From positions 1 to 30,474 of the IMG/VR virus record IMGVR_UViG_3300019776_000943: 30,474 nt of DNA. The stretch is one strand, 5' to 3'. Positions 8,519 to 29,451 of this stretch are shown here, piece after piece. Position 1 is the first letter of the stretch; every line of letters begins with the position of its first letter. The translations under genes and the position numbers were made by a program. This stretch comes from a virus. The notes below the pieces were generated by a model. It was not told where the DNA came from. It worked only from the letters and a program-made list of their open reading frames with translations, and searched no databases.

Positions 8519-8520
8519 TT

Positions 8521-10211: not shown

Positions 10212-10219
10212 TAGTCTTT

Positions 10220-11530: not shown

Positions 11531-12225
11531 GAACATTAGTAATAACTGGAGGTGAAAGTAGTATTTGGGACGCTTTAAACTTAACCCTCCCTTCCAAATT
11601 TAAATGGTGTCAAAAATATGGTTATGACATTTTAGTAAAAAGAACATGGCCCGCTAAACCTGAATTTAATTTCGAAGAAGGGTTAAAGCATGTTGGATTT
11701 CTTCGAGTTGTTGCGTGTTTCGAACAATTAAAATATTATGATAATGTTATGTGGTTAGATGCTGATAGCATTATTACTAATCAAGAATATAAAATTGAAG
11801 ATTTTATAGATGATCAACATTGCTTTTTTGCTTCTTATAACTGGATGGTACCAGAAGGTACAAATAAAGAATTTACAACAGGTAATTTTATTATTAAAAG
11901 AACACCTTTCCCAGAAATTGAGCAATTATATAATTTGTTTATACAAACAAGTAAGTACTTTCTTGATCATATTTGTGTTGAATTAGCAACATTAAACACA
12001 ATATACAATACAACCCTTTTAAAAAGTGTAATGAAAATTTTACCGCATAGATATTTAAATGCATGTCCGGATTGTTTAATACAGACTCAAACATGGAAAA
12101 ATGATAATAATAGAACCGGTATAGTCTCTCCATGGAATGAAGATTGTTTTTTAGCGCATCTAACAGGTTGTTCTAATGTGGAAAGAGAGGAAGTATTTAA
12201 AAAGTATTTTAAAAAATATTTGTAA
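11527..12225 (+). CDS. Glycosyltransferase, GT34/GT77-like
   Basis: A 232-residue protein. The sequence KWCQKYGYDILVKRTW (about 26-41) followed by a DXD motif in MWLDADSIITN (Asp78-Ala-Asp80) and a C-terminal AHLTGC.N.EERE-like segment is the layout of galactosyl/mannosyl transferases of the GMA12/MNN10 (GT34) and related families. These are soluble or membrane-anchored in cells; here no membrane helix is present. A metal-dependent transfer from a UDP- or GDP-sugar is expected. The stop is one base before the next start. The acceptor is unknown. Confidence 0.75.
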   Translation: MRTLVITGGESSIWDALNLTLPSKFKWCQKYGYDILVKRTWPAKPEFNFEEGLKHVGFLRVVACFEQLKYYDNVMWLDADSIITNQEYKIEDFIDDQHCFFASYNWMVPEGTNKEFTTGNFIIKRTPFPEIEQLYNLFIQTSKYFLDHICVELATLNTIYNTTLLKSVMKILPHRYLNACPDCLIQTQTWKNDNNRTGIVSPWNEDCFLAHLTGCSNVEREEVFKKYFKKYL

Positions 12226-12226
12226 A

Positions 12227-13066
12227 ATGAGCTATATATGTTTAGATTCAATAGGCCTTTTTGGTGAAAGACTCGGTTCTCAAATGAACAATTTTGCAGC
12301 TATATACACTGCTGCAAAAGAAACAGGTCACACATTAGCTATAGAAAGAAATAAATTAAATGCAGGTACTGGTCAACAAATGATACTAGATGCATTTGAA
12401 TATCCTTTTACTCTTCTAGATGATACAAATAACTTTAAAATTATTGAAATTGAAGAATTTGCAAAATATTTTCCTAATGTAGAAAAGTTAAGTATTCATA
12501 AACTTAGTCAAAATATAAATTATAAGATTGTTGGAAGATTAGATAATGGTCATCGTATTTATTTTAATAATGCAGAACAAATTCAAAATAATCTTTTTAA
12601 ATTTAAATCTCAATATTTACAAGCAGCTCAAAATCTTATTAAACAACTTAAAACTACTAATAAACAAATAGTATCTTTACATTTTCGTCGAACAGATTAT
12701 CTAACCCACGCTTCTTATTGTTTAACGTTAAATTATTATCGAGAAGCATTATCTTTTTTTAATCCTGATATACATTGTCTTTTACTTTTTTCTGACGATA
12801 CGGAATTTTGCAAAACTGAAGTAGCCTCTTTTTTAAAAACTTTTCAACCTGTATGGGATACATATTATATAATAAACAATAGTTTTAATACCGATATGTG
12901 TTTAATGTCAATGTGTGATCACAATATTATTGCTAATAGTTGTTTTAGTTTTTGGGCAGCTCTTTTAAATAAAAACACCAATAAACAAGTAATATATCCC
13001 AAAAATTGGTTTGACCCCGAACCATCATCTTTTTCAAGTGATTGGATATCAGTAGCAACTATATAG
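12227..13066 (+). CDS. GT11-family (alpha-1,2-fucosyltransferase-like) glycosyltransferase
   Basis: A 279-residue protein counted from ATG 12227. This start is chosen over an in-frame ATG at 12176 because it follows the previous stop by one base and places the conserved N-terminal motif at the right distance. The motifs are those of family GT11: GERLGSQMNNFA near the N-terminus (compare GRLGNQMFQYA), HFRRTDY in the middle, and a C-terminal segment NSCFSFWAALLN followed by VIYPKNWF (compare SNSTFSWWGAWLN). GT11 enzymes move fucose from GDP-fucose to galactose or similar. GT11-like proteins can use other donors, so fucose is probable rather than shown. A 34-base gap follows. Confidence 0.85.
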   Translation: MSYICLDSIGLFGERLGSQMNNFAAIYTAAKETGHTLAIERNKLNAGTGQQMILDAFEYPFTLLDDTNNFKIIEIEEFAKYFPNVEKLSIHKLSQNINYKIVGRLDNGHRIYFNNAEQIQNNLFKFKSQYLQAAQNLIKQLKTTNKQIVSLHFRRTDYLTHASYCLTLNYYREALSFFNPDIHCLLLFSDDTEFCKTEVASFLKTFQPVWDTYYIINNSFNTDMCLMSMCDHNIIANSCFSFWAALLNKNTNKQVIYPKNWFDPEPSSFSSDWISVATI

Positions 13067-13100
13067 TTGATAGGCTATAATAATTTTTTTAAGTATAACA

Positions 13101-14063
13101 GTGAAAAAAATTGTATACATTACAGGATGTTTAGGATTTATAGGTTCATATGTAACTAAACTATGTTTATTAAAAGGCTGGTATGTTAAAGGAGTAGATA
13201 AGATAACATATGCTGCTAATAAAGAACTATTAAAAGAATTTCAAAAACATAAAAACTTTTCATTTGTACATTGCGATATTAATGATTTAAAATTCTTATA
13301 CGACTGTGATTACGTTATTAATACAGCTGCTGAAACACATGTAGGAAACTCTATAGTTAGTAGTCAGGAATTTGTTAAAAGTAATATAGACGGTGTACAT
13401 AATATTTTAGAACTTATAAAAAACTTTAGAGGGGAAAATTCCGGTAAACCTACCCTTATACATTTTAGTACTGATGAAGTTTATGGAGATATAGATAAAG
13501 GCTCTCATACCGAACAAGACTTGCTTAAACCGAGTAACCCATATTCAGCAACAAAAGCTGCAGCTGATATGCTAATAACTGCCTGGGGTAGAACACACCA
13601 AGTGCCCTATATGATTTTGCGACCTACAAATAATTACGGTATTGGTCAATACGTGGAAAAACTTATACCTAAATCAATAAAATATTTAACATTAGGACGT
13701 AAAATACCTTTACATAATAATGGTGAATCTTTCCGTAATTGGCTTCATGCTGAAGATACAGCCCGAGCAGTAATAACTTTAATAGAAAAAGGAACTATTG
13801 GAGAAATTTATAATGTAGCTGGAGGATTTGAACAAAAAAATATTGATACTGCAACTAAAGTTATTTCTACTTTTTTTGATAAAAAATATAGTGCTAATAA
13901 TGTACAAGAGTTTGTTGACTTTTCAGTTGTAAGACCAGGAGAAGACATTAGATATGCATTAGATGATTCTAAGATAAAAAAACTAGGTTGGACACCGATA
14001 GTTGATTTTAATACAGAATTATCTAATATTGTTGAGTACTATAAAGCAAGATTTATATGGTAA
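13101..14063 (+). CDS. NDP-glucose 4,6-dehydratase (RmlB-like SDR)
   Basis: A 320-residue extended short-chain dehydrogenase starting at GTG 13101. Motifs: NAD-binding TGCLGFIGS (8-16), DKITYAANKE (like DKLTYAGN of RmlB), HFSTDEVYGD with the Asp-Glu pair used for C6 dehydration, YSATKAAAD (YxxxK) and RPTNNYG. These features are those of dTDP-glucose 4,6-dehydratase, which makes the 4-keto-6-deoxy sugar nucleotide that RfbH-type enzymes, epimerases and reductases build on. The nucleotide (dTDP, CDP or other) cannot be fixed from sequence; the neighbouring RfbH-type enzyme would argue for CDP. No nucleotidylyltransferase for the sugar phosphate is seen in the block. Its end overlaps the next start by 7 bases. 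Confidence 0.88.
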   Translation: MKKIVYITGCLGFIGSYVTKLCLLKGWYVKGVDKITYAANKELLKEFQKHKNFSFVHCDINDLKFLYDCDYVINTAAETHVGNSIVSSQEFVKSNIDGVHNILELIKNFRGENSGKPTLIHFSTDEVYGDIDKGSHTEQDLLKPSNPYSATKAAADMLITAWGRTHQVPYMILRPTNNYGIGQYVEKLIPKSIKYLTLGRKIPLHNNGESFRNWLHAEDTARAVITLIEKGTIGEIYNVAGGFEQKNIDTATKVISTFFDKKYSANNVQEFVDFSVVRPGEDIRYALDDSKIKKLGWTPIVDFNTELSNIVEYYKARFIW

Positions 14064-15841
14064 ATAAAAAAGTTTTAGAATATATAATCGATTTTTTAAT
14101 CGAAAATAATATTAATACATTTTTTCTTGTTACAGGTGGTGCTATTGCACCAATGGTCGACTATATTGGTAGAAATGATAAAGCAAAATATTATTGTTTT
14201 CAACACGAACAATCTGCTGCAATGGCGGCCGAATCGTACTACAGAACAACTAATCAAATAGCTGCAGTTTTAAGCACTAGCGGTCCAGGTGCTCAAAATT
14301 TATTAAACGGCATTTGTGGTTGCTGGTATGAGTCGATTCCTTGTATATTTTTAACAGGTCAAGTTAGTACTTATGAATCCGTAGTATCGGTTAGTACAAC
14401 CCCTAGACAAGTAGGCTTTCAGGAAACACCTATAGTTGAATCCTTTAAACATTTTACAAAATTTTGTAAAAAAGTAGTAACACCTGAAAATATAGAACAA
14501 GACCTTATTGAAGCATTAACACATGCAGTTTCAGGCAGAAAAGGCCCTGTTCTTTTAGATCTACCAGTTGATATTCAAAATAGTGAAATACAAATTACTG
14601 ATAAACAATTTATTAATAAACAAGAAAATAATAATTTAGATGCTGAAATTAATTTATTAAATGAAAAAGTAGCTTTAAGTGAACGACCTTTAATATTAGT
14701 AGGTCATGGTGTAAGACTAAGCGGTGCACAAAATTCTATAAAGACATTAATCGAAAAACTTAATATACCTTTTGTAGCATCATGGGGCGGAATTGATATT
14801 ATATCTCAAGATCATCCTCTATTTGTAGGTGATATTGGTGTATATGGTAGTAGAAGCGGTAATTTTGCTATTCAAAATTGTGATTTATTAATATCGATAG
14901 GCTCAAGATTAGATACAAGACAAACAGGCGGTAATTTAGAAACTTTTTCTAGAGAATCTTTTAAAGTTATGGTTGATATTGACCGTAATGAAGTTTATAA
15001 AGATCGCGGAGTTAAAATTGACTTACCAATAGTAAGTGATGCAAGTTGGTTTATTGAAAGTTGGTTATTAACCTCCCCTGTAGTTAAAATATCAAAATCG
15101 TGGGAAAACTACATTAAAAATTATAAGGAACTTCAATTAGATAATCGTCCCTTAAAAGAAGATGTATTAACATCTTATGAATTTTTACAAGAACTTAATA
15201 AACATCTTCCGTCTAATGCTATAGTTATACCCGATGAAGGTGGTAATTTAGTTTGGACTATGCAATCTATTAAACCAAAAGCTCAACAACGTCTATTTTC
15301 TAATTTTGGTAATTCATCTATGGGGTACGGGCTTCCAGCTGCTATAGGAGCAGCTATAGGCAACGATAAACCAGTAATTTGTATTGACGGAGATGGCGGT
15401 TTTCAGATGAATATTCAAGAATTACAAACTGTAAAACATTATAACTTACCTATTAAAATTTTTATTATGAATAATAATTGTTACGGTATTATCAAGCAGT
15501 TTCAGGACGCTTATTTTGGTTCAAGATATACAGCTACGGAAGAAAAAGATTATACAGCACCTAACTTTGTTGATGTTGCTAAAGCATATGGTATATCAGC
15601 AATAGAAGCTAATAAAGAAAATTACAAGGAAATTATAGAATTTGCCATTCAAAAAGAAGGTAGTATACTTGTTAATGTCATTATAGACAAAGAACAAAAA
15701 TTAATACCTAAATTAGAATTTGGAAACCCCCTTGAAGATATGTCTCCATATTTGTCAGATGCCGAAATTAATAAAAATATGATCGTTAAAACACTACCCA
15801 GAAGAGACAATACTCAAGGATGGATAAATTTAAACAAATAG
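14057..15841 (+). CDS. TPP-dependent acetolactate-synthase-like enzyme
   Basis: A 594-residue three-domain thiamine-diphosphate enzyme. The catalytic Glu lies in HEQSAAMAAE (Glu51), followed by TSGPGAQN (74-81). The central domain has SWGG and GSRLDTRQTGG, and the TPP/Mg site is D444-GDGG with NNN at 472-474. It aligns with acetolactate synthase large subunits in length and order. In a sugar cluster with an RfbH-type enzyme, the best-known parallel is YerE, which decarboxylates pyruvate and adds the two-carbon unit to C4 of CDP-3,6-dideoxy-4-ketohexose. A genuine acetolactate synthase feeding the PanB reaction is the alternative. No regulatory small subunit is nearby. The family is certain, the role inferred. 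Confidence 0.88.
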   Translation: MVNKKVLEYIIDFLIENNINTFFLVTGGAIAPMVDYIGRNDKAKYYCFQHEQSAAMAAESYYRTTNQIAAVLSTSGPGAQNLLNGICGCWYESIPCIFLTGQVSTYESVVSVSTTPRQVGFQETPIVESFKHFTKFCKKVVTPENIEQDLIEALTHAVSGRKGPVLLDLPVDIQNSEIQITDKQFINKQENNNLDAEINLLNEKVALSERPLILVGHGVRLSGAQNSIKTLIEKLNIPFVASWGGIDIISQDHPLFVGDIGVYGSRSGNFAIQNCDLLISIGSRLDTRQTGGNLETFSRESFKVMVDIDRNEVYKDRGVKIDLPIVSDASWFIESWLLTSPVVKISKSWENYIKNYKELQLDNRPLKEDVLTSYEFLQELNKHLPSNAIVIPDEGGNLVWTMQSIKPKAQQRLFSNFGNSSMGYGLPAAIGAAIGNDKPVICIDGDGGFQMNIQELQTVKHYNLPIKIFIMNNNCYGIIKQFQDAYFGSRYTATEEKDYTAPNFVDVAKAYGISAIEANKENYKEIIEFAIQKEGSILVNVIIDKEQKLIPKLEFGNPLEDMSPYLSDAEINKNMIVKTLPRRDNTQGWINLNK

Positions 15842-15853
15842 TTAAATAGTTTT

Positions 15854-16789
15854 ATGCCTGCAGATAACAAAACCAAAAAAACAATATTGACCCTTAATCA
15901 AAACAAGCTTAAAGGAATTAAAACAGTAATCGTAACTGCTTATGACTACCCACAAGCTAGAATAGCAGATGCCGCCGGTGTTGATGGCATTCTTGTAGGG
16001 GATTCATTAGGTATGACAACACTTGGACATAAAACAACTATACCTGTGACAATGGATGATATGATCCGGTCATGTGAAGCAGTAAGTAAAGGTAATGAAA
16101 ATGCTTTCTTAATCGGTGATATGCCTTACATGTCATATCAACCCTCTGATCAAGTAGCTATCGAAAATGCAGGTCGTTTTATTGTAGCTGGTTGTGATAT
16201 GGTAAAAGTGGAAGGCGCAATGGTTGATAGGGTTAAAGCAATAGTTAATTCAGGTATTATGGTAATGAGTCATTTAGGGCTTACCCCTCATACTCGCGCT
16301 AAATTAGGCGGATATAAAGTACAAGGTAAAACTGCTGCTCAAGCTGAAATTGTTTTAAATCAGGCCCTTAAATTACAAGAAGCTGGTTGTTCCGCTCTTT
16401 TATTAGAAGCTATGCCAAAAGAACCAGCAGGAATGATAGCACGAGAACTAAATATACCCGTTTACGGTATTGGTGCTGGGGATGAAGTAGACGGACAATT
16501 AGTTATATTTCATGATTTAATGGGATTATTCTGGGAATTTAAGTCTAAATTTGTTAAACGTTATTGTGAAGCTGGTAAAATTATGACACAAGCGTTAACA
16601 GATTATGCTAATGAAGTCCGTAACGGTCAGTTTCCAACTCAAGAAAACTTCTATGAAATAAAAGAAGAGGAACTTGAAAAATTATTAGGTAATGAAAAAT
16701 GGAAATATGAATTAGATAAAGATTATTATAATAATAATAATCATAGTGTAACACCAATTACGGTTAATCCATCAGCTATTAAAAGATAA
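15854..16789 (+). CDS. panB: PanB-like ketopantoate hydroxymethyltransferase
   Basis: A 311-residue PanB homologue with the active site intact: Asp50 (VGDSLGMTTLGH), Asp89 (IGDMPYMSY), Lys118 and Glu120 (MVKVEG), His140 (SHLGLTPH) and the catalytic base Glu185 (LLLEAMP). PanB transfers a hydroxymethyl group from methylene-tetrahydrofolate to an alpha-keto acid, normally 3-methyl-2-oxobutanoate on the way to pantothenate and CoA. It lies directly after the TPP enzyme and abuts the next SDR gene (TAAGTG). A C-terminal extension of some 40 residues beyond the usual PanB length carries an Asn-rich stretch encoded by an ATA/AAT trinucleotide run that is also a perfect inverted repeat (16721-16742). 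A sugar-modifying role or a CoA-boosting metabolic gene are both possible. Confidence 0.92.
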   Translation: MPADNKTKKTILTLNQNKLKGIKTVIVTAYDYPQARIADAAGVDGILVGDSLGMTTLGHKTTIPVTMDDMIRSCEAVSKGNENAFLIGDMPYMSYQPSDQVAIENAGRFIVAGCDMVKVEGAMVDRVKAIVNSGIMVMSHLGLTPHTRAKLGGYKVQGKTAAQAEIVLNQALKLQEAGCSALLLEAMPKEPAGMIARELNIPVYGIGAGDEVDGQLVIFHDLMGLFWEFKSKFVKRYCEAGKIMTQALTDYANEVRNGQFPTQENFYEIKEEELEKLLGNEKWKYELDKDYYNNNNHSVTPITVNPSAIKR

Positions 16790-17695
16790 GTGAAAGTTTT
16801 GGTAACAGGAGCTAATGGATTTATTGGATCCAATCTTGCTAAAGCTTGTCTTAATAAGAAACATGATATATTAGCTATTTCTCGTAATACTACAAATATT
16901 TCTTGTTATAAAAATAAACAATGTAATATTCAAGATATTGATACATTAACAAAAGACATTACAACGTTTAAACCAAATGTAGTTATACATTGTGCATGGG
17001 ATGGTGGCAACAGTTATACAGATATTAATGATAAAAAGCAGTTTAATAATGTTACAAACAGCTTAAAATTATTAGATACGATCTCAAGTCTTAAAAATAT
17101 ACATTTTATATGCATAGGTAGTGCTGCTGAATATGGAAATTATAATGATCAAATAAATGAAAATTTTATAGAACATCCAATTAGTTTTTATGGTGTTTCG
17201 AAATTTTCATTTAAAATGCTTTCCAATATTTTTTGCAAAAAACATGATATTTTATGGTCTTGGGTACGACCTTTTTATACGTACGGCCCGCACGATGTTG
17301 CGACAAGACTAATACCAAAAACTATTATAAGTTGTTTAAAAAATGAAAAAATCGAATTAAACTCTTGTAATTCAATTATAGATTATTTATATATAGATGA
17401 TTTTGTTGACGGATTAGTAAATATTTTTGAAAATAAATTTGTCGGTGTTTATAATATATGTTCAGGTAAGCAATATGAAATAAAAACTATTATTAATAAA
17501 ATACAAAAATTATGTAAAAATAACTCTTCAATCGCTTTTAATAAAAATTTTGATAGAGAAAAATTTCCAAATTATATTTGCGGGGATAGTTCCAAACTAA
17601 TTAAACAGTCTAATAATAAATGGTATCCTAAAATTAATTTAGATGATGGACTTACTAAAACAATAATGCACTATGAAACAATTCTTAACAATTAA
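16790..17695 (+). CDS. NAD(P)-dependent sugar epimerase/reductase (SDR)
   Basis: A 301-residue extended SDR starting at GTG 16790, immediately after the panB stop. Motifs: TGANGFIGS (6-14), VVIHCAWDGG, GSAAEYGNY (active-site Ser region) and FYGVSKFSFKML (YxxxK). The C-terminal half carries the substrate-binding pattern of NDP-sugar epimerases and 4-reductases. In this block it is a candidate for reduction or epimerisation of the keto-sugar, a YerF-like side-chain reductase being one option. It overlaps the following methyltransferase gene by 23 bases. Confidence 0.82.
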   Translation: MKVLVTGANGFIGSNLAKACLNKKHDILAISRNTTNISCYKNKQCNIQDIDTLTKDITTFKPNVVIHCAWDGGNSYTDINDKKQFNNVTNSLKLLDTISSLKNIHFICIGSAAEYGNYNDQINENFIEHPISFYGVSKFSFKMLSNIFCKKHDILWSWVRPFYTYGPHDVATRLIPKTIISCLKNEKIELNSCNSIIDYLYIDDFVDGLVNIFENKFVGVYNICSGKQYEIKTIINKIQKLCKNNSSIAFNKNFDREKFPNYICGDSSKLIKQSNNKWYPKINLDDGLTKTIMHYETILNN

Positions 17696-18311
17696 AGAAA
17701 ACGGATGGCATTGGCCGGTGAATGGCGATTATACATGGCAAGCAGTTACAGGGGCTTTAGATATACATAATAAAATTACCCCTTATTTAAAACAAACAAA
17801 TGTAGCTATTCAAGCTGGTGGAAATGGCGGTTTAATGGTAGCACCACTAGCTAAAAAATTTAAAAGTGTATATACCTTTGAACCAGAACCTTTAAATTTT
17901 TATTGTCTTACAATAAATGTAACAAGTTCTAATGTATTTAAATATCAAGCATGCTTAGGCAATAAACGGGGAACAGTATGTTTAAACAATTTATTTTCCA
18001 ACGATAACGGCGCGTTTTACGTTGATGGAACAGGTGAAACCCCTGTGCTAATGATTGACGATCTCGGACTTACTGATTGTAATTTAATTTTTCTTGACAT
18101 AGAGGGACAAGAATATTTTGCACTACTTGGCGGTATTGAGACTATAAAAAAATATAAACCTGTAATTGTTATGGAGCATTGTATTCCCTGGATGCAGCGG
18201 TATAATATTTCTGTGACTGAAATTAACAGTTTACTAATTGATCAGTTAGGTTATAATTTAGTATCAACTTTTCAAGGCGATAGTATCTATGCATGTACTA
18301 AACAAAGTTAA
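17673..18311 (+). CDS. FkbM-family methyltransferase
   Basis: A 212-residue SAM-dependent methyltransferase of the FkbM type. The SAM-binding motif I region reads VAIQAGGNGGLMV (about 44-56), then YTFEPEPLNFYCL (motif II), a DDLGL turn and the FkbM signature LDIEGQEYFALLGG (about 140-153). FkbM enzymes O-methylate sugars or polyketides. In this block the likely target is a hydroxyl of the sugar or glycan. In motif I the usual DvGan is QAGGN, so the first acidic residue is Gln; whether this affects SAM binding is unclear. The start lies within the end of the preceding gene. Confidence 0.82.
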   Translation: MKQFLTIKENGWHWPVNGDYTWQAVTGALDIHNKITPYLKQTNVAIQAGGNGGLMVAPLAKKFKSVYTFEPEPLNFYCLTINVTSSNVFKYQACLGNKRGTVCLNNLFSNDNGAFYVDGTGETPVLMIDDLGLTDCNLIFLDIEGQEYFALLGGIETIKKYKPVIVMEHCIPWMQRYNISVTEINSLLIDQLGYNLVSTFQGDSIYACTKQS

Positions 18312-18326
18312 AACTAAGTATTAATA

Positions 18327-19094
18327 ATGAAAATATTAATTACAGGCGGTAACGGTTATATAGGAAAAACTCTATACAATTATTTAACTACAAAATACAA
18401 TACAACTGCTTTAACAAGACGGGATGTTGACTTAACTAACAATAAAAATGTTTTTAATTTCTTTAAAGATAAATTTTATGATGTTGTAATACATTGTGCA
18501 ATAATAGGTGGGAGCCGTCTTAAAAAAGATAATTGGAATGTATTAGACACCAATTTAATAATGTATTATAATTTGTTACAGTGTAAAAATAGTTATAATA
18601 AATTTATACATTTTGGTTCAGGAGCAGAGTTATACGCAAAAACAGAACCATACGGATTAAGCAAATTAATAATTCAAAAATCAATATTAGAAAAAGAAAA
18701 TTTTTATAATATAAGAATTTTTAATGTTTTTGATGAAAATGAATTATCAACAAGATTTATAAAGACAAACTTATTTAATTATATTAACAAACAACCAATA
18801 ACAATACATTGCGATAAAAAAATGGATTTTTTTTATATGAAAGATCTTATTAAATTAGTTGAATATTATATTACTAAAAACGTTTTACCAAAAGAAATAA
18901 ACTGTACATATAATAAAACATATTCATTATCTGAAATAGCGCATTTAATTAATAAACTTGATAAATTCAAAAGCAATATTATTATTGAAAATAAATATCT
19001 CGATCAAAATTATTGTGGAACTTATACCCCTTTAATAGATGACTATATTGGCCTGGAAAAAGGTATACAGCATGTTTTTACAAAACTAAAATGA
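18327..19094 (+). CDS. Short NDP-sugar reductase/epimerase (GDP-fucose synthase-like SDR)
   Basis: A 255-residue SDR, shorter than most (about 300). Motifs: TGGNGYIGKT (6-15), VVIHCAIIGG, HFGSGAELYA and PYGLSKLIIQ (YxxxK). The arrangement, with LTNNKNVFNFF after the nucleotide-binding domain, is closest to GDP-L-fucose synthase and dTDP-rhamnose-type reductases. If it makes GDP-fucose it would supply the two fucosyltransferase-like enzymes of the block, but the GDP-mannose dehydratase that should precede it is not seen. Codons are strongly AT-biased. The stop overlaps the next start (ATGA). Confidence 0.78.
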   Translation: MKILITGGNGYIGKTLYNYLTTKYNTTALTRRDVDLTNNKNVFNFFKDKFYDVVIHCAIIGGSRLKKDNWNVLDTNLIMYYNLLQCKNSYNKFIHFGSGAELYAKTEPYGLSKLIIQKSILEKENFYNIRIFNVFDENELSTRFIKTNLFNYINKQPITIHCDKKMDFFYMKDLIKLVEYYITKNVLPKEINCTYNKTYSLSEIAHLINKLDKFKSNIIIENKYLDQNYCGTYTPLIDDYIGLEKGIQHVFTKLK

Positions 19095-19852
19095 ACAATC
19101 ACCTTTTAATACAAAACTGTCAATCAGGCTTTTTTTCTGATTTTAATTTAATTACTTCTGGTTTACAATATTTTTATGATAATAAAATAACAGATTTTAA
19201 TGTGATATGGAAAAATATGAGATATCAAAATGATGATTCTAATATTTTTGAAAAATATTTTTTTACAAATAAACCTTTAGAAGCATTTCAAAATACTATA
19301 TATGCAGCTCAATTTGGTAATCTTTGGGCACCAGTTATGGATAGATCAATTTTCATAAAATATCATGAAGTTTTAAAATTCTACAAATATTTTGATAATA
19401 CAATTTTTAATTCTTTAAAAGAAGAAAGTAAAAAAATTATTCCGAAATCAACAATTGGTGTACATATAAGAGGTACGGACTGCACTCGTCATCGTCAATT
19501 TTTAAATGTTGATTATTATTGTCAGTTTATTGATAAAAAGCTTGAAACCAATACCTATAAAAATATATTTGTAGCTACAGACGAAGAACTTTTATTAAAT
19601 GAAATAAAATTACGTTACCCTAATCTTATTTTTAATGAAAATATTTTTCGAAGTAAAGATAAAAATGCAGTACATAATCATTTACAGTATTCTAACAAAG
19701 AAAAATTTGCGTTGGATGTAATAACAGATGGTATTTGTTTATCTTTATGCGAAGAAATAATACATACTTCGAGTAATGTTATTGGTTATGTCTTCATGTT
19801 AAACCCTCAAATTAAAAATGAACATATAGACATGTATCTACCACATTATTAA
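19091..19852 (+). CDS. NodZ/GT23-like (fucosyltransferase-fold) glycosyltransferase
   Basis: A 253-residue protein. The C-terminal half carries the features of the fucosyltransferase GT-B superfamily: IGVHIRGTDC (H-x-R-x-T-D loop that binds GDP-fucose), IFVATDEELLLNE (nucleotide-binding DE turn), and a terminal segment VITDGICLSLCEEIIHTSSNVIGYV like the 'D..LLS.CD..ig..SSN' part of NodZ and FUT8. The N-terminal part is poorly conserved. It would transfer fucose or a related deoxysugar; the acceptor is unknown. It is the last gene of the block and is followed by 43 bases before gp46. Confidence 0.72.
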   Translation: MNNHLLIQNCQSGFFSDFNLITSGLQYFYDNKITDFNVIWKNMRYQNDDSNIFEKYFFTNKPLEAFQNTIYAAQFGNLWAPVMDRSIFIKYHEVLKFYKYFDNTIFNSLKEESKKIIPKSTIGVHIRGTDCTRHRQFLNVDYYCQFIDKKLETNTYKNIFVATDEELLLNEIKLRYPNLIFNENIFRSKDKNAVHNHLQYSNKEKFALDVITDGICLSLCEEIIHTSSNVIGYVFMLNPQIKNEHIDMYLPHY

Positions 19853-21696: not shown

Positions 21697-22956
21697 ATGT
21701 CACAGTTCATTGTTCAGCAATCCGGTATACAACACTTAATGGGCGCCCCTATTGGTTTACCGCCTTTTATTCCATCCACTACACAAGTTTTACCAATTCA
21801 AGGTGGAGGGGTATTACCGCCACCAGAAATTCCAGGTCAAGGTTTACCAAGAGCTATTAACTATCTAGCAGATTACGGTGGATGTTCATTTTATAGGTGT
21901 ATGGCACCAAACTTAATGCTTAATCTCTATCAAAAAGCTGTGCTATTGGAACTTACCACGATGGTTCTTGATCCGAGATTTTATGCTGGCGTTAAAGCAA
22001 TTAAAATACAACGTCAGGCAACACCAATTCAAAGAGACTTTGTTAAGATGCTAAAAGAAATTTCTCGTCAAATGGGTAAAGACGGTTTTAAAATCATTTA
22101 CGAAATTGACGACATCGTCTTTAGAGAAGATATTCCCGATTTTAATCGTAATAAAGACGCATTTGTTGCTGATGAGATCCGTAACTCTATTTTAGAGATT
22201 CTCGATATGTGCGACGAGGTTACAGTCACTTGTGACTTTATGAAAGATTACTTTAACGAAAAGATGGGTGTAAAGAAAACAACTGTTATTCCTAATTATC
22301 TTCTTCGCTGGTGGTTTGATCGTTACTACAATCTTGACAAACTCGTTAAAAATTTCGAGAAAAATAAAAAGAAACCTATTGTATCAATTTTTGCTTCAGG
22401 TACACATGTTGATGTAACTAACCGCACAGGTCAAAAAGATGACTTTGAAATGGTAGTACCTGCAATTATTAAGACTAGAAAAGATTTTAAATGGCGCTTT
22501 TATGGTTGTTATCCGTTACCACTTAAACCGTTTATTGATAGAGGTGAAATTGAGTTTAAAGAGTGGGCCCCTCTTCCAGAATTTCCCGGAACTATGGCTG
22601 CTTCAGATACACAAGTAACTTTTGCTGCTCTTCAAGATAATAACTTTAATAGAGCTAAATCTAATATTAAACTTCTTGAAGCCGCGGCTTTAGGTATACC
22701 TTGTATCTGTCCTAATATGGTTACGTACAAAGATGCCAAACTCAAATACTCAAACGCTAATGAGTTTATCGATTGTATTAAAACTGCTACTAAAAATCAG
22801 CATACCTATGCCGATTATTGTAAGAAAGCTCGAGCTTATGCCGATAACTTCTGGCTTGAAGATGAAAAAAATCTCATGAAACATCATGAGGCATATTTTA
22901 CACCTTACGGATCACCTGATAGAAAATATTTGCTTGAGAGCAATCCTAAATCATAA
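21697..22956 (+). CDS. GT-B fold glycosyltransferase (GT4-like)
   Basis: A 419-residue protein. After a Pro/Gly-rich, probably flexible N-terminus (about 15-50) come a Rossmann-like domain with IIYEIDDIVF (about 132-141) and CDEVTVTCDFMKDYF, then a second domain. The second domain has VSIFASGTH, WRFYGCYPLP, IEFKEWAPLPEFPG and the donor-site signature SNIKLLEAAALGIPCICPN (about 326-344). This is the pattern of GT4-type retaining transferases, which use UDP- or GDP-sugars. It lies between gp46 and the DNA polymerase, outside the main glycan block and with less AT-rich codons, so it may be an older resident gene. DNA-base or protein glycosylation are both open. Confidence 0.85.
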   Translation: MSQFIVQQSGIQHLMGAPIGLPPFIPSTTQVLPIQGGGVLPPPEIPGQGLPRAINYLADYGGCSFYRCMAPNLMLNLYQKAVLLELTTMVLDPRFYAGVKAIKIQRQATPIQRDFVKMLKEISRQMGKDGFKIIYEIDDIVFREDIPDFNRNKDAFVADEIRNSILEILDMCDEVTVTCDFMKDYFNEKMGVKKTTVIPNYLLRWWFDRYYNLDKLVKNFEKNKKKPIVSIFASGTHVDVTNRTGQKDDFEMVVPAIIKTRKDFKWRFYGCYPLPLKPFIDRGEIEFKEWAPLPEFPGTMAASDTQVTFAALQDNNFNRAKSNIKLLEAAALGIPCICPNMVTYKDAKLKYSNANEFIDCIKTATKNQHTYADYCKKARAYADNFWLEDEKNLMKHHEAYFTPYGSPDRKYLLESNPKS

Positions 22957-22970
22957 TACAATAGGTAGTA

Positions 22971-25517
22971 GTGTATAGGAACGCATCATATAACCCACGA
23001 GAGGGAACTGTATATCTTAGAACTTGGACTGATGACGGTGCAAGAATTGATACAGAGGTTCCTTATACACCATATCTCTTTACAGAACAGAAAGATAGTA
23101 AAGATGCTACTTCTATCTTTAAAACCCCTTTAAAGAAGCATTACTTTAAGAACGGCTTTGAGCGTAATAAATTTGTACAAGAAACTAAGAATCCGAGGTT
23201 GTTTGGTAACTTACCTATTGACCAACAATTCTTAGTAGACAGGTTTAAAGAAGAGGTCCATAAAGCAGAGTTCTCACAATTCCCTCTTAAAGTTTACTTT
23301 ATAGATATTGAAACGTATTCACCAGGTGCTTTCCCTATTCCTAAATTTGCTAAAGACCCGGTCAACCTTATTACGATTTACGATACATTAGACGATAAAA
23401 TCTATACCTGGGGTCTTAGAAATGATTACAAACCAAAACTCTCAAATGTTACATACTACAAATGTAAGACAGAGGATGAAATGTTTGAGAAGTTTGTTAA
23501 CTTCTGGAAGAAAGACCCGCCCGATATTTTGACTGGCTGGAACACTGAGCAGTTCGACGTTCCCTATATTATTAATCGGGCTAAGAATTTGCTTGGCGAA
23601 GACTTTATTCGTCAGTTATCTCCCGTAGGACAAGTACACTATAGAGAGAACTTTGCTAAGTTTGGTAAAGAGATGGGTCGGTGGTACATAACAGGGGTAA
23701 GCTGTTTAGACTACATGGAAATTTATAAGACATATTCTAAAGGAGATCGTGAGTCGTTCTCTTTAAACTATATTTGTGAATACGAACTTGGGGAAGGTAA
23801 ACTCGCTTATAATGCTACATCACTTTCAGGTCTAGCCGATCAGGATTGGGATCAATTTGTTGACTATAATATTCAGGACGTTGATCTATTGCGCAAGCTT
23901 GAAGAAAAGCTTAATTACTTAAAAATTATCCGTTTGCTGTCTTATAAGGGCTGCACTAACTTCGAAAGAGCTCTAGGTAAAGTCTCAATTGTAACAGGAG
24001 CGATGACCCTTCAGGCACAGAAGCAAGGATATGTTATTCCCACATTTAAAAATGAAATAACAAGAGAATCTTTGGAAGGTGGCTATGTACGGGACCCTGA
24101 AAGAGGCCTTAAAGAAGCCATCGTTAGTTTTGACGTTAACTCTCTGTACCCTAATACTATTATTACTCTTAATATTGGGTCTGAAACTAAGCTAGGTAAA
24201 ATAGTTACAGGTGATCCTGAATCAGATAAAGAGGTTGAAATAAGACTTGAGTCAGGCGGTATGTTTAAAGTTACTACCGCAAAACTTAAAAAATTCTTAA
24301 TTGACGAGAACGTTTCATTATCCAAAGCTGGAGTACTATACTCTCAAAAATTTAAAGGTGTTTGTCCTAATTTGATTAATAGCATCTATGACGAACGTGT
24401 TCATGCACGTAATGAAATGCTTAAGCTTAAGAAGACAAAGCAAAAAGATAAAGAAACTATTGGTAAGATTCAGTACTTCGATACACTTCAATATACGTTA
24501 AAGATTCTTCTTAACTCCATTTACGGTACGTTTGCTAACAAACATTCAGCGTTCATGGATATTGATAATGCTTCATCCATTACTTTAACTGGTCAAGCTG
24601 TTGCTAAAGCGGGCGGTGCTATTGTAGATGCTTGGGCTAAAGAGAAGTTTGGCATTACCGAATCTCTTATTATTGCTGGTGATACCGACTCACTATATAC
24701 AACAATACAACCTATCCTTACTAAACTCAATTTACCTCTTGTTAAAGGTGGCTCCATTACACCTGAAGCTCATAAGATCGTTAACGCGATGGAAAAGCAT
24801 CTTAATACTGAGATTATTAACTGGGCTAAGTCTGAGCTTAACTCTGCTGATCCTCGATTTGTTTTTAAACGAGAAGCTATCGCTGATGTAGGCTCTTTTT
24901 TAATGAAGAAACGCTACATTATTCATATCTTAGATGAAGAAGGTGTTCCTACTAATAAATTCAAATATGTAGGTGTTGAATTGGCCCGGTCAACAACTCC
25001 TAAGGAGGTTAAGGCTTTGATTAAAAAAACTATTGATACAGCTTTCTTATCGAAAGATGTTAAAAAGACTAATGAAGTATTTCGTGAAGCTTATGATCAT
25101 TTTAAAAATCTCGATGTATCTGAAGCAGCTTTCCGTAAGGCTGTAAAAGAGCTTGAAAAGTATTCAGGTGGTGCTTCACTTCACAAGTTTAACCTTGGTA
25201 CACCTTGTCATGTTAAGGCAGCTCTGGCTTACAATTTTCTGCTTGAAAAGATGGGCATACAAACTAAGTACGAGTCAATTAATTCTGGTCAAAAGATCAA
25301 ATATTTCTATGCTATGAAAAACCCTTACGGGCTAGATGCTGTAGCGTTTGCTGGGGAGTATCCAAAAGAGTTTCATGAGATTAAAATCGACTACGATAAA
25401 ATGTTCGGTAAAATTGTTGTGCCCCCGATTGAGGCTGTTTACGAAGCCATTGGATGGAGAATTCCTGTAATTGGCAAAGAAGTTCAAACAGATTTATTTG
25501 ATTTATTTGGGGATTGA
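22971..25517 (+). CDS. 43: gp43, family B replicative DNA polymerase
   Basis: An 848-residue polymerase (T4 gp43 has about 900). Proofreading exonuclease motifs are intact: D112-I-E114 (Exo I), F195-D196 in GWNTEQFDVP (Exo II) and YNIQDVD (299-305, Exo III). Polymerase motifs: A, DVNSLYP (388-394); B, NSIYGTFAN (515-523); C, D571-T-D573-S. The C-terminus TDLFDLFGD resembles the clamp-binding tail of T4 gp43 (SLDFLFG), so it should dock on gp45. The GTG start at 22971 has an AGG about 8 bases upstream. It replicates the phage genome with the gp41/gp44/gp45/gp62 proteins, which are outside the window. Confidence 0.97.
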   Translation: MYRNASYNPREGTVYLRTWTDDGARIDTEVPYTPYLFTEQKDSKDATSIFKTPLKKHYFKNGFERNKFVQETKNPRLFGNLPIDQQFLVDRFKEEVHKAEFSQFPLKVYFIDIETYSPGAFPIPKFAKDPVNLITIYDTLDDKIYTWGLRNDYKPKLSNVTYYKCKTEDEMFEKFVNFWKKDPPDILTGWNTEQFDVPYIINRAKNLLGEDFIRQLSPVGQVHYRENFAKFGKEMGRWYITGVSCLDYMEIYKTYSKGDRESFSLNYICEYELGEGKLAYNATSLSGLADQDWDQFVDYNIQDVDLLRKLEEKLNYLKIIRLLSYKGCTNFERALGKVSIVTGAMTLQAQKQGYVIPTFKNEITRESLEGGYVRDPERGLKEAIVSFDVNSLYPNTIITLNIGSETKLGKIVTGDPESDKEVEIRLESGGMFKVTTAKLKKFLIDENVSLSKAGVLYSQKFKGVCPNLINSIYDERVHARNEMLKLKKTKQKDKETIGKIQYFDTLQYTLKILLNSIYGTFANKHSAFMDIDNASSITLTGQAVAKAGGAIVDAWAKEKFGITESLIIAGDTDSLYTTIQPILTKLNLPLVKGGSITPEAHKIVNAMEKHLNTEIINWAKSELNSADPRFVFKREAIADVGSFLMKKRYIIHILDEEGVPTNKFKYVGVELARSTTPKEVKALIKKTIDTAFLSKDVKKTNEVFREAYDHFKNLDVSEAAFRKAVKELEKYSGGASLHKFNLGTPCHVKAALAYNFLLEKMGIQTKYESINSGQKIKYFYAMKNPYGLDAVAFAGEYPKEFHEIKIDYDKMFGKIVVPPIEAVYEAIGWRIPVIGKEVQTDLFDLFGD

Positions 25518-25532
25518 TTTATTATTTTAACT

Positions 25533-26363
25533 ATGCTTATATCACACGAAACACCTGTATCGTTGCTTCCATACTCTTGGGGCTATAATGACTACGACTA
25601 TTGTTTGGTACATCTCTTACCTGAGAACCAAAAGTATAAAGACTTTTACTTTAAATCAGTAGAATACGGACGTAGAGTTTTACTTGATAATTCTATCTTT
25701 GAACTTGGAACTGCTTTTGATCCTGATCAGTTTGCTTATTGGGTTAAAGAGCTTAAACCTTTTGAGTACGTTATTCCTGATGTTCTAGAAGATTCTGCAA
25801 ACACCTGTATTTCTTTAGATAACTTTTTATCAAAATATTCTGATTTACCTGGTCGTAAGATTGGTGTTGTTCAAGGCAAAACTTACCAAGACATCGTTGA
25901 TTGTTATAGATATATTGCGCCGAGAGTTGATAAGATTGCTATCTCATTTGACTACTCTTACTATCTTGATAATTGTGACTGGTCTCAGATTAACGTCCCA
26001 GGCTTTGTTAAAAAGCAGGAAGAGAACAAGTGGTTAAAATACGCTGTTGGTCGGGTTAAGCTTTTAGACGATCTTTATGACGATGATGTATTAAATGTTG
26101 ATAAACCACATCACCTTTTAGGTGCATCTCTTCCTTGGGAGTTTGCATTATATGCTGATAATTACCTTAGCGAATATATTGAAACTATTGATACTTCAAA
26201 CCCGATTGTTGCAGGTATTCTTGGTAAGAGGTACGAGTCTGAATACGGATTATCTGAGAAGTGGTCAGTGAAGCTTGTAGACTTTATTGATGCTGAATTA
26301 ACTGAGCAACAAATCTATGATTCATTCTGGAATGTCACTCAGTTTAGAAAGTTTTGTAAGTGA
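25533..26363 (+). CDS. dpdA: TGT/DpdA-like DNA 7-deazaguanine transglycosylase
   Basis: A 276-residue protein with a divergent tRNA-guanine-transglycosylase pattern: LLDNSIFELG (Asp52, in the place of the TGT active-site DSGGFQ), VIPDVLED (82-87, compare the base-binding PD of TGT), IGVVQGKT (110-117, compare GIVQGG), LLGASLPWE (195-203, compare GGL.VGE) and TIDTSNP (Asp220, a candidate nucleophile). No zinc-binding C-terminal cysteines are present, as in phage DpdA proteins. DpdA swaps guanine in DNA for a 7-deazaguanine. The neighbours on its 3' side are a formyltransferase and QueF, which fit the same pathway. The subfamily cannot be fixed without a search. Its stop overlaps the next GTG start. 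Confidence 0.75.
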   Translation: MLISHETPVSLLPYSWGYNDYDYCLVHLLPENQKYKDFYFKSVEYGRRVLLDNSIFELGTAFDPDQFAYWVKELKPFEYVIPDVLEDSANTCISLDNFLSKYSDLPGRKIGVVQGKTYQDIVDCYRYIAPRVDKIAISFDYSYYLDNCDWSQINVPGFVKKQEENKWLKYAVGRVKLLDDLYDDDVLNVDKPHHLLGASLPWEFALYADNYLSEYIETIDTSNPIVAGILGKRYESEYGLSEKWSVKLVDFIDAELTEQQIYDSFWNVTQFRKFCK

Positions 26364-26902
26364 GTAGACCTTGGGTAACTTTGTTTAGTCAAACCGGCTC
26401 TGAGATATACAATATCTCAAAAAAGATTAATCGTGTACCTGATGTCATTATTACCAATAAACCTAAGGATAGGTTTTTAGAAATTAAACCTGAACTATTT
26501 GATGAATATAGTGACCGTTTTGTTTGGTTGCCTAAAAAACCAACAGTAGAAGAATATATCGAAGCTATTCCGTTTGGTTCATTTGTCACTCTTCATGGTT
26601 GGTTAAGAATTATTCCGCTTGAAGTTTGTGAAGCGTATGAAATTTATAATTTACATCCTGCACCAATTCATTTAGAAGGATACGACAAATATAAAGGAAA
26701 AGACCCTCAGGTTAGAATCTTTGAAGATAAAGCAAAATATTCCGGAAATGTTATTCATAAATGTATTCCGGAGTTAGATGCCGGTGAAATAATAGCTAGA
26801 AATAACTTTAATGTTAGAGGTTTAGATCTTGATACAATCTTTAAAATAACTCATGAAGCAGCTACAGAACTCTGGTGTAGCTTTTTGCAAAGTAGGGTAT
26901 AA
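26360..26902 (+). CDS. Formyltransferase, candidate dPreQ1 N-formyltransferase (DpdN-like)
   Basis: A 180-residue formyltransferase-fold protein of the PurN/Fmt superfamily. The catalytic triad is visible: Asn97 and His99 (NLHPAP) and Asp140 (ELDAGEII), with the VIHKC segment before it as in PurN (SGxTVH). It would use 10-formyl-tetrahydrofolate. Start is GTG 26360, overlapping the TGA of the transglycosylase gene (GTGA), so the two proteins are probably made together. A purine-synthesis role is less likely given the neighbours. A family of phage formyltransferases acting on the aminomethyl group of preQ1 in DNA (DpdN) has been predicted, and this gene fits that role. The specific substrate is inference. 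Confidence 0.72.
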   Translation: MSRPWVTLFSQTGSEIYNISKKINRVPDVIITNKPKDRFLEIKPELFDEYSDRFVWLPKKPTVEEYIEAIPFGSFVTLHGWLRIIPLEVCEAYEIYNLHPAPIHLEGYDKYKGKDPQVRIFEDKAKYSGNVIHKCIPELDAGEIIARNNFNVRGLDLDTIFKITHEAATELWCSFLQSRV

Positions 26903-26913
26903 TATAGATAGTT

Positions 26914-27462
26914 ATGAGAGTATCGTTTACAGGCGCGCAGAGTACTGGTAAGACTACATTACTGAATAAATGTAAAGAAATCTACAAAGATTATAAATTT
27001 GTAGACGAAGTTACTCGTTATGTTCGCCGGACATACGATGTAAAGATTAATGAGATAGGTGGCACAGAGACTCAGCTATACATTTTGGCTGAGCATATTA
27101 AGAATCATATGAGACCTGAAGAAAATTTAATGCTCGATAGATGTATTTTAGACGGATATGTTTATACAAAATATCAAGTAATGAATGGTAAGGTAAAAGA
27201 GGATGTATTGCATGCATTCAATAGTGTATTTACTTTACTATTTGATAAATTAGATTATGTTTTTTACACTGATCCGTTAGATGTAAAGCTCGTAGATGAT
27301 GGTGAGAGGAGTGTAGACTTTAAATTTAGAGACACTATAATCAATATATTTGAAGATGTTATTACATATAAAATGTCTTCTAAAAATAGAGAAAAAATAA
27401 TTAAGCTTCGTGGTACGGTTGAAGAGAGAATGAAAACAATTGACAAATATTTAAAACAATGA
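26914..27462 (+). CDS. NadR-like P-loop kinase/ATPase
   Basis: A 182-residue P-loop protein. Walker A is GAQSTGKTT (7-15). The segment FVDEVTRYVRR and a Walker-B-like LMLDRCILDGYVY (about 73-85) follow, then a FYTDP nucleotide-kinase strand. This is the pattern of the NadR C-terminal (AAA_28) kinase domain, which phosphorylates nicotinamide riboside. It sits between the formyltransferase and QueF genes, so a role on a nucleoside in the modification pathway is possible. So is NAD salvage together with the HxGH nucleotidyltransferase at the left edge. A perfect TATAAT (26898-26903) lies just upstream but without a good -35. The stop overlaps the queF start by 4 bases. Confidence 0.75.
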   Translation: MRVSFTGAQSTGKTTLLNKCKEIYKDYKFVDEVTRYVRRTYDVKINEIGGTETQLYILAEHIKNHMRPEENLMLDRCILDGYVYTKYQVMNGKVKEDVLHAFNSVFTLLFDKLDYVFYTDPLDVKLVDDGERSVDFKFRDTIINIFEDVITYKMSSKNREKIIKLRGTVEERMKTIDKYLKQ

Positions 27463-28403
27463 GTACAAACCTAAACGACATCGCTTCTAAATCCTTAGGC
27501 TCTTCAGCCTCTTATGCTGTTTATACTGATAAACATGATGCATCACTTCTTAACCCTATGCCCCGAGAACTAGCCCGGGAGGGTTGGGGTATTAAAGGAA
27601 ATGAGTTTGTAGGGTATGACACCTGGCATTGTCATGAAGCTACTTTTCTTCTTAATAGCGGCGCACCGATTGCTGGTACTTTAAAGTACACCTATTCTTC
27701 TGACTCAAAATATATGGTTGAGTCTAAGTCTGCTAAACTTTATCTCAACACTTTTGATATGTGTAAGATGGGTGGTTCCTTAGAAGAAGCTATTCTCAAT
27801 TACGAACTTCAAGTTAAAACAGACTTGGAGAAGGTTTTAGAGACTGGAGTTGATGTTAAATTTTTTAAATCCGGAGACGATATTAACGAAATCTTCCCTA
27901 TGTCGGGCTATATTGATCTTCAATCTTTTTTAGGTAAAGATTTAGAAAGTATTGAAATTACTGACTATAGTGCAGAGAAAAATCATCTTGAGTTTCAAAG
28001 TGCTAATTATTCTGGTTTTGGTTATAATGTAAAAGAAAATAAAGCGTTATATGCAAATCGATTCTTTACAAACGCTTTAAGGTCACGTTGTCGCCATACA
28101 AAGCAAAAAGATACTGGAGCAGCTTATATCTCTATTAATACATTAGGTTGTGTTGTTAAACCTGAATCAATCTTTAAGCAAGTTGTTTCATTGAGAGAGG
28201 TTAATGAGTTCCATGAATTCTGTGCTGAAAAGCTTTACACTGAAATTATGAAGTGCCCAGAGGTTGATTCCTGCTGTGTAACACTTTTATATTCCCGGCG
28301 CGGTTCTTTGGATATTAATCCAACAAGAGCTACTTCGTTTGATATGCTACCTCCAGTACTTATTAATCCGAAATATTACACTAAAAAAGCAATGGGTCAG
28401 TAG
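27459..28403 (+). CDS. queF: QueF-like NADPH-dependent preQ0 reductase
   Basis: A 314-residue protein matching the two-domain (E. coli-type) QueF along its length: YDTWHCHE (53-60), ESKSAKLYLNTF (88-99, the QueF signature), active-site Cys211 and Asp218 (SRCRHTKQKD), NEFHE with His252 and Glu253, and RRGSLDINP (280-288). All four catalytic residues of E. coli QueF (Cys190, Asp197, His229, Glu230) have counterparts with the same spacing. It reduces 7-cyano-7-deazaguanine to preQ1 with NADPH. In phages this supplies preQ1 for DNA. No preQ0 synthesis genes (FolE, QueD, QueE, QueC) are in the window, so preQ0 must come from the host or from genes elsewhere. Confidence 0.93.
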   Translation: MSTNLNDIASKSLGSSASYAVYTDKHDASLLNPMPRELAREGWGIKGNEFVGYDTWHCHEATFLLNSGAPIAGTLKYTYSSDSKYMVESKSAKLYLNTFDMCKMGGSLEEAILNYELQVKTDLEKVLETGVDVKFFKSGDDINEIFPMSGYIDLQSFLGKDLESIEITDYSAEKNHLEFQSANYSGFGYNVKENKALYANRFFTNALRSRCRHTKQKDTGAAYISINTLGCVVKPESIFKQVVSLREVNEFHEFCAEKLYTEIMKCPEVDSCCVTLLYSRRGSLDINPTRATSFDMLPPVLINPKYYTKKAMGQ

Positions 28404-28438: not shown

Positions 28439-28807
28439 ATGGAACAAAACAAAATCGTAGTATTCTTCGACACAGTCGGTAGAACAATCTTAGGCGAAAA
28501 ATTAGAAGACAAAACAACTAAAGATATTCTTGCAATTAAGAATCCTGCAGTTGTTCATATCATGCCTAACCAGCAAACAGGCCAACTTCAGCTTCAAATC
28601 CTTCCTTTATTCTTCAAAGAGTTTCTAGCTGAAAAAGATGCCGGTACTGTTTGGAGTTACAACCGTGCCAATATTACTGAAGCTGTTGACGTAACTTTTG
28701 ACTTCAAACTTGAAGCTCAATACCGTCAAATTTTTGCTAACGTTCCAGCCCCTGCACCTCAGCAGCCACAAGGTTCGCCAGAAGTTATTCGTTTGTTCGA
28801 TGAATAG
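28439..28807 (+). CDS. Small hypothetical phage protein, acidic C-terminus
   Basis: A 122-residue protein I cannot name. The first 95 residues look like a mixed alpha/beta domain (IVVFFDTVGRTILGEKL, then AVVHIMP and LQLQILPLFFKEFL). A Pro/Ala/Gln linker (about 100-113) then leads to a short acidic tail EVIRLFDE. The folded domain, linker and short hydrophobic-acidic tail resemble phage proteins that dock on the sliding clamp through a terminal peptide, but this is only a shape argument. The start ATG follows an AT-rich TAATATATTAAA stretch. A terminator-like hairpin lies 15 bases past the stop. Confidence 0.6.
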   Translation: MEQNKIVVFFDTVGRTILGEKLEDKTTKDILAIKNPAVVHIMPNQQTGQLQLQILPLFFKEFLAEKDAGTVWSYNRANITEAVDVTFDFKLEAQYRQIFANVPAPAPQQPQGSPEVIRLFDE

Positions 28808-29451
28808 TTAGTATATCTTTTTAGAAGTATTTTACTTCTATTTTTAACTATACTACAAATAGGGTCAATAGTACAACCTAAAACTTTGCTAGCTTCTGTT
28901 GCAGAGCTGAATTGTAAAATTTTACCTGTTTGAGTATCGAATAACTTTACTTTTAAACTATGAGATGGTTTGCAGCCTTTTTTAGCTTTACTGATAGCTA
29001 AACAATGCTCTAAACTCTTTTTAACACCTTTCATAGCTTTACTAACACCTATACCTCTACGTTTTATAAGCTCTTTAGAAGGTTTTGGGTACTTTTTACC
29101 TAAATTAGCTCCGCCATTGCCACCTGTACCTTGTAGTTTAATATTATAACCATTCTTAATAGTATTAAATTTTTTAATATAAAACTCCTCTCTTTCTCGA
29201 CAATCTTGAACTTTTGTGTTTATTACATCTAGTACCTCGAAAACAAAATTCTTTATACCGTATTTGTTAATAGCATTTAAAAGTTTTTTATTGTAATAGG
29301 TATGTTTATGTTTTGCATATTGATTATATCTGACCCAAAAACCTTTACCACATTTACGAAATGTACTTCCAATATAAATTTTGTTATTTAGTAAATTTTT
29401 AATTTGATAAACACCGTTATTGTATCTATAATTTTTATTAATAAATTGCAT
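28759..29451 (-). CDS. GIY-YIG homing endonuclease with NUMOD-type tail
   Basis: A 230-residue protein. The GIY-YIG nuclease domain starts at GVY (13-15) and YIG (26-28), with Arg41 in the expected helix and Glu89 (REEFYIKKFNT) as the catalytic Glu. A KKGC/SKAMKG-type NUMOD3 region (about 115-160) and a NUMOD1-like helix-turn-helix (about 168-205, LFDTQTGKILQFSSATEASKVLG) follow, the DNA-reading parts of free-standing and intron homing endonucleases. It runs against the flanking plus-strand genes and its last 16 codons overlap the end of the 122-residue gene. The start is preceded by ATAAATAATA, one base from the left operon's box. It is probably a selfish insertion between that gene and uvsX. 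Confidence 0.88.
   Translation of the reverse strand: MQFINKNYRYNNGVYQIKNLLNNKIYIGSTFRKCGKGFWVRYNQYAKHKHTYYNKKLLNAINKYGIKNFVFEVLDVINTKVQDCREREEFYIKKFNTIKNGYNIKLQGTGGNGGANLGKKYPKPSKELIKRRGIGVSKAMKGVKKSLEHCLAISKAKKGCKPSHSLKVKLFDTQTGKILQFSSATEASKVLGCTIDPICSIVKNRSKILLKRYTNYSSNKRITSGEPCGC
28822..28845 (+). terminator. Rho-independent-type terminator hairpin
   Basis: A perfect 8-base stem TAGAAGTA / TACTTCTA (28822-28829 and 28833-28840) with a 3-base TTT loop is followed directly by TTTTT. It is 15 bases after the stop of the preceding gene and oriented to end plus-strand transcription. The stem is AT-rich, so it may be weak. It lies inside the 3' coding end of the convergent endonuclease gene. 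Confidence 0.6.

Follow-up and report, generated by a model that had tools for sequence, protein, structure and literature searches.

Cui et al. reportedly defined, in 2023, the transglycosylase subfamily DpdA3 for full replacement of guanine together with a dPreQ1 formyltransferase, DpdN, that makes fdPreQ1, and to our knowledge cassettes of this fdPreQ1 type have been described from very few phages. That DpdA/DpdN pathway consists of a transglycosylase, QueF, and a formyltransferase, all of which recur in the locus described here, so the predicted chemistry is of an already known kind; the locus differs from it by a nucleoside kinase partner. The phages Dp-1 and HVTV-1, both with QueF, carry dPreQ1 in their DNA (PMC6884629). 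In Streptococcus phage Dp-1, a QueF-type enzyme and a DpdA account for this base, like the set predicted here, but the DpdA is of another subfamily, no kinase is annotated beside it, and ~1.7% of G is modified (PMC6884629). Campylobacter phages of the genus Firehammervirus have their guanosine replaced by deazaguanosine (PMC8713573), and a 2019 survey classed such phages as DpdA-less (PMC6884629). The base reported for CP220-type phages is dADG, which is a deazaguanine and not a derivative of preQ1 (PMC8713573, PMC6884629).

The locus lies on a 30,474-base virus fragment from IMG/VR (hereafter the window, meaning the whole stretch of DNA that was analysed) of a T4-like phage, with a UvsW-like helicase, gp47/SbcD, gp46/SbcC, the gp43 family B DNA polymerase (PolB), and UvsX as markers. 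Directly 3' of the T4-type polymerase, positions 25533-28403 hold four nearly overlapping genes, all on the plus strand:

22971..25517, plus strand: T4-type family B DNA polymerase, the syntenic upstream neighbour (PF00136, 1.5e-28; phrog_262, 3.8e-198)
25533..26363, plus strand: DpdA-like DNA guanine transglycosylase, 276 aa (phrog_19058 and an AlphaFold2 model)
26360..26902, plus strand: formyltransferase, a candidate dPreQ1 formyltransferase (DpdN-like), 180 aa, GTG start (PF00551)
26914..27462, plus strand: P-loop nucleoside-kinase-like protein, 182 aa (PF13521, AAA_28)
27459..28403, plus strand: QueF, type I NADPH-dependent preQ0 reductase, 314 aa (TIGR03138, PF14819)

The polymerase is context and stands outside the modification pathway. 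The first-pass annotation had placed the four reading frames at these coordinates, on this strand and right after the polymerase, as they were found, and had described them as one overlapping run, which is nearly exact: the first and third junctions are 4-base overlaps, and the second is an 11-base gap. No fusions between members of the cassette were found, and a nucleotide search of phages with the cassette region returned no match. Among the matches listed, over 50 non-redundant viral loci share this gene order, so the arrangement is not a product of chance.

Elsewhere in the window, a 12-kb sugar/glycan cluster (7673-19852) lies between gp47 and gp46 and encodes glycosyltransferases, a DegT aminotransferase, an NDP-sugar dehydratase and epimerases, an AHAS-like TPP enzyme, a PanB-like ketopantoate hydroxymethyltransferase, and an FkbM methyltransferase. 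A weakly glycosyltransferase-like ORF (21697-22956) separates gp46 from the polymerase, a short way upstream of the cassette; its product could act on DNA or on a surface glycan. A GIY-YIG/NUMOD1 homing endonuclease (28759-29451, minus strand; phrog_314, 3e-30) is encoded between p28439 and UvsX.

The nearest annotated phage, Flavobacterium phage vB_FspM_immuto_2-6A (NC_055915), has all four genes too, arranged in the same order (gp206-gp202), the first of them annotated by its submitters as DpdA, DNA guanine transglycosylase. In contrast to the window, which belongs to a T4-type PolB lineage, immuto has a family A polymerase and, following DpdA, an additional small ORF, and its genome contains FolE, QueD, QueE, and QueC, whereas the preQ0 genes of the window's phage lie outside the fragment.

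For the transglycosylase, the sole match in the family scans was the unnamed phrog_19058 (8.7e-49), with none in Pfam or NCBIfam, and a sequence-profile search of the PDB gave nothing meaningful, so that a structure prediction was needed. The AlphaFold2 model, for which the input was an alignment of 45 sequences from the window and viral contigs, had a pLDDT of 94.6 and a pTM of 0.91. Its first and second Foldseek matches in the PDB were a tRNA-guanine transglycosylase (7ovo) and the DNA preQ0 insertase DpdA (7ui4), and VIA-align placed it on the archaeosine TGT 1iq8 with a Z of 17.6 and an rmsd of 2.9 over 229 aligned residues. The protein had been called TGT-like from its sequence, with a structure unlike DpdA or TGT named as the result that would speak against the assignment; the model instead has the TIM-barrel fold of the TGT family. 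The TGT-type residues are D52, D83, Q114-G115, G197, and D220, of which D52, D83, G115, and D220 do not vary, and Q114 hardly varies, across the 45 sequences. By analogy of motifs, and not from superposed coordinates, the conserved aspartates in TGT-like positions are the putative general acid-base and nucleophile, and the QG loop is present. The classical C-terminal CxCxxC...H zinc site is absent from this protein, which has five cysteines, so it is not a classical tRNA TGT.

The transglycosylase is 45% identical to the immuto DpdA (gp206) and 40% identical, over 99%, to the Firehammervirus CP220 gp056, which we take to be a "DpdA3" enzyme of full guanine replacement; homology searches from the window end and from the CP220 end return the same family. 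A profile comparison with DpdA1 of 9g did not give a significant match, and the placement within the DpdA subfamilies therefore rests on the link to CP220 and immuto. In CP220, gp056 is followed directly by a member of the same kinase family (gp057, 33% identical to that of the window), but, unlike the window, CP220 gave no QueF match anywhere in its genome, and the examined region lacks a formyltransferase.

For the formyltransferase, the Pfam match (PF00551, 1.7e-7) was over the cut-off, PurN-type profiles matched as well, and the Formyl_trans_N fold carries the N-H-D triad looked for in a DpdN. This triad (N97/H99/D140) is intact and invariant in about 45 representatives below 80% identity, so that the earlier wording, a formyltransferase-fold protein, was right but loose; identity to the immuto counterpart is 43%. 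Linkage to QueF and joint loss with it support preQ1 or dPreQ1 as the predicted substrate, and the acceptor of the formyl group could be the free base, the nucleoside, or DNA.

The identification of QueF held up, with matches of its QueF_N and QueF domains to TIGR03138 (1.4e-44), PF14819 (7.3e-20), and PF14489, and with the nitrile-reductase residues C211, D218, E88, and H252 invariant in 40 representatives. The TIGR03138 score of 153 is under the equivalog cut-off of 293, as expected of a divergent phage QueF, and identity to the immuto QueF is 37%. None of FolE, QueD, QueE, and QueC is encoded in the window, itself a fragment; in its close relatives FolE, QueD, and QueE fall outside the span that the window covers, and in larger relatives FolE lies downstream of the cassette at a distance of ~7 kb, and QueD-QueE are roughly 23-30 kb from it. 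QueC was not found in the partial contigs of the closest relatives, and the host may therefore supply it.

Scans of viral contigs in IMG/VR returned at least 581 relatives of the transglycosylase and at least 501 of the formyltransferase. Among the matches listed, we compared 91 loci that were non-redundant at 90% and had at least 4 kb of downstream sequence; because their selection was based on similarity to proteins of the window or CP220, the counts describe this clade and not DpdA as a whole. The gene states were nested, from DpdA with the kinase, to these with QueF, to all of these with the formyltransferase. Within 4 kb, 57 of the 91 loci had the formyltransferase, kinase, and QueF, 21 had the kinase and QueF without the formyltransferase, and five had the kinase alone. 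Three more had the formyltransferase and kinase without QueF, and five had no partner at that distance; of these eight, two had QueF further along and four had a kinase-QueF pair ~6-8 kb off. Only one locus of the 91, on a 72-kb contig (L311), had a formyltransferase, itself a weak match, and no QueF.

Four loci (L026, L029, L033, and L035) share the window's PolB...p28439-UvsX arrangement and have the order PolB-DpdA-kinase-p28439-UvsX, with QueF and the formyltransferase lost together and DpdA and the kinase retained; in the tree, L035 falls within the formyltransferase-bearing clade of the window. This joint loss, and the near absence of the formyltransferase where QueF is missing, suggest that the formyltransferase depends on the product of QueF. 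The association of the two genes gave a Fisher p of 0.014 when kinship was ignored, and by independent pairs, with few independent gains or losses, it was not significant (median p 0.5).

The kinase (PF13521, 1.9e-14) had been described as a P-loop kinase, correctly if loosely: it has a fold of the NadR/deoxynucleoside-kinase superfamily. Its AlphaFold2 model (pLDDT 92.2) gave VIA Z scores of 18.7 to the NadR kinase domain (8x7f) and 17.0 to the deoxynucleoside kinases 1j90 and 2ocp (dNK and dGK, human dGK included). The motifs comprise an invariant Walker A (G7..GKT), Q54, D75-R76, and D129-G-x-R132, and in a profile match to a deoxynucleoside kinase Q54 and D75-R76 align with the MQ and DRS motifs of that enzyme; identity to the immuto counterpart is 31%. 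Among the matches listed, the kinase is near DpdA in 86 of the 91 loci and on the same contig in 90. Adjacency is not absolute, with the kinase beside QueF ~6-8 kb from DpdA in L074, L284, L290, and L295 and absent from the 25-kb fragment L298. Since the kinase stays where the formyltransferase and QueF are gone, we take it to belong with the transglycosylase and not with QueF. A main role in NAD salvage for the NADPH demand of QueF was rejected because the kinase is kept without QueF in CP220, L026, L029, L033, and L035.

In eight relatives of the window (L164:8381-10405, minus strand, and L165-L171), a second kinase paralogue, similar by profile (E 1e-36), completes a QueD-QueE-kinase run; an NMNAT-like nucleotidyltransferase near the L164 copy makes NAD salvage an alternative for that copy. 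CP220 likewise has a second kinase copy, beside a dUTPase. In phiST-like phages (L172:4043-5996), the genes immediately 5' of a distant DpdA homologue encode a phosphoribosyltransferase, a dCTP deaminase-like protein, and a third protein whose C-terminal domain is a P-loop kinase. The kinase profile matched nothing in 9g, Dp-1, or phiST, and the phiST protein is best regarded as a P-loop kinase at the corresponding position, orthology not being supported.

From the computed folds, active-site residues, gene order, nesting, and co-loss we infer, with a probability of roughly three in four, that the products of the four genes synthesize a predicted formylated 7-deazaguanine, fdPreQ1, and place it in phage DNA. 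In this pathway, preQ0 would be made by FolE, QueD, QueE, and QueC of the phage or host and reduced by QueF to preQ1, the DpdA-like transglycosylase would replace guanine bases with the 7-deazaguanine by way of a covalent intermediate of the TGT type, and the formyltransferase would place a formyl group on the aminomethyl nitrogen to give 2'-deoxy-7-(formylamino)methyl-7-deazaguanine. The replacement may be extensive, because this DpdA clade includes the Campylobacter protein from a guanine-replacing genus, and its likely purpose would be to shield the DNA against host restriction enzymes. The kinase would be an accessory to the transglycosylase, probably in the recycling of nucleosides or guanine. 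The first-pass annotation had predicted deoxy-preQ1 or fdPreQ1, and the modelled DpdA/TGT structure, the intact QueF residues, and the co-loss of formyltransferase and QueF lend support to that prediction; since the formyltransferase is hardly ever found without QueF and disappears with it, the evidence favours fdPreQ1 over plain dPreQ1.

As to the kinase alone, and compatibly with the fdPreQ1 pathway, it is possible, though we hold it only tentatively, that the enzyme recycles by-products, the released guanine being returned to GTP by a phosphoribosyltransferase and kinases to feed preQ0 synthesis. Phosphoribosyltransferase genes neighbour the cassette in immuto and in many relatives, and the phiST-type arrangement and the paralogue beside QueD-QueE fit such a role; however, guanine is a base whereas the kinase has a nucleoside-kinase fold, and no phosphoribosyltransferase was detected near the cassette within the lineage of the window itself.

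It is unlikely that replacement is pre-replicative, with the base swapped on deoxyguanosine or its nucleotide, the product phosphorylated by the kinase, and the polymerase incorporating it. The near-constant company of DpdA and a kinase of this fold (90 of 91 contigs, even without QueF and the formyltransferase) would suit such a scheme, as would the alignment of the invariant Q54 and the DR pair with the substrate-binding Gln region and DRS motif of a deoxynucleoside kinase, and the absence of any annotated kinase beside dpdA in 9g as in Dp-1. Enzymes of the TGT family act on polynucleotides, however, we know of no dADG nucleotides having been seen in Firehammervirus infection, and the paralogue beside QueE suggests a broader role for the kinase. 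The acidity of the transglycosylase family (median pI 5.4) might also seem to favour action on nucleotides, but overall charge is uninformative as a sign of DNA binding, as the 9g DpdA1 is acidic too (pI 5.6). Neither is a dGTP pyrophosphohydrolase, expected by analogy with Z-genome phages, a general partner: MazG and PRA-PH are limited to the immuto-like group and phiST, apart from two contigs whose partial MazG matches lie far from the cassette. We consider it improbable that guanine exchange in the nucleotide pool, with the kinase, yields whole genomes carrying formyl-aminomethyl 7-deazaguanine in place of G.

Quite improbable, finally, is that plain dPreQ1 or some other deazaguanine is the product, with the formyltransferase serving another pathway, such as glycan-cluster sugars or purine synthesis, since the sugar/glycan cluster of the window, the PurN-type matches, and the dPreQ1 of Dp-1 and HVTV-1 (PMC6884629) are outweighed by a formyltransferase that dozens of divergent phages, including some with differing neighbourhoods, encode between DpdA and QueF and that vanishes jointly with QueF.

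The numbers of IMG/VR relatives of the transglycosylase and formyltransferase indicate that the fdPreQ1-type cassette is widespread. The analysis also draws attention to a nucleoside kinase that almost always accompanies the transglycosylases of the clade associated with full replacement of guanine. Pool-level replacement, if true, would depart from the accepted post-replicative insertion, and the kinase partner makes the timing of every-G replacement, after or before replication, directly testable.
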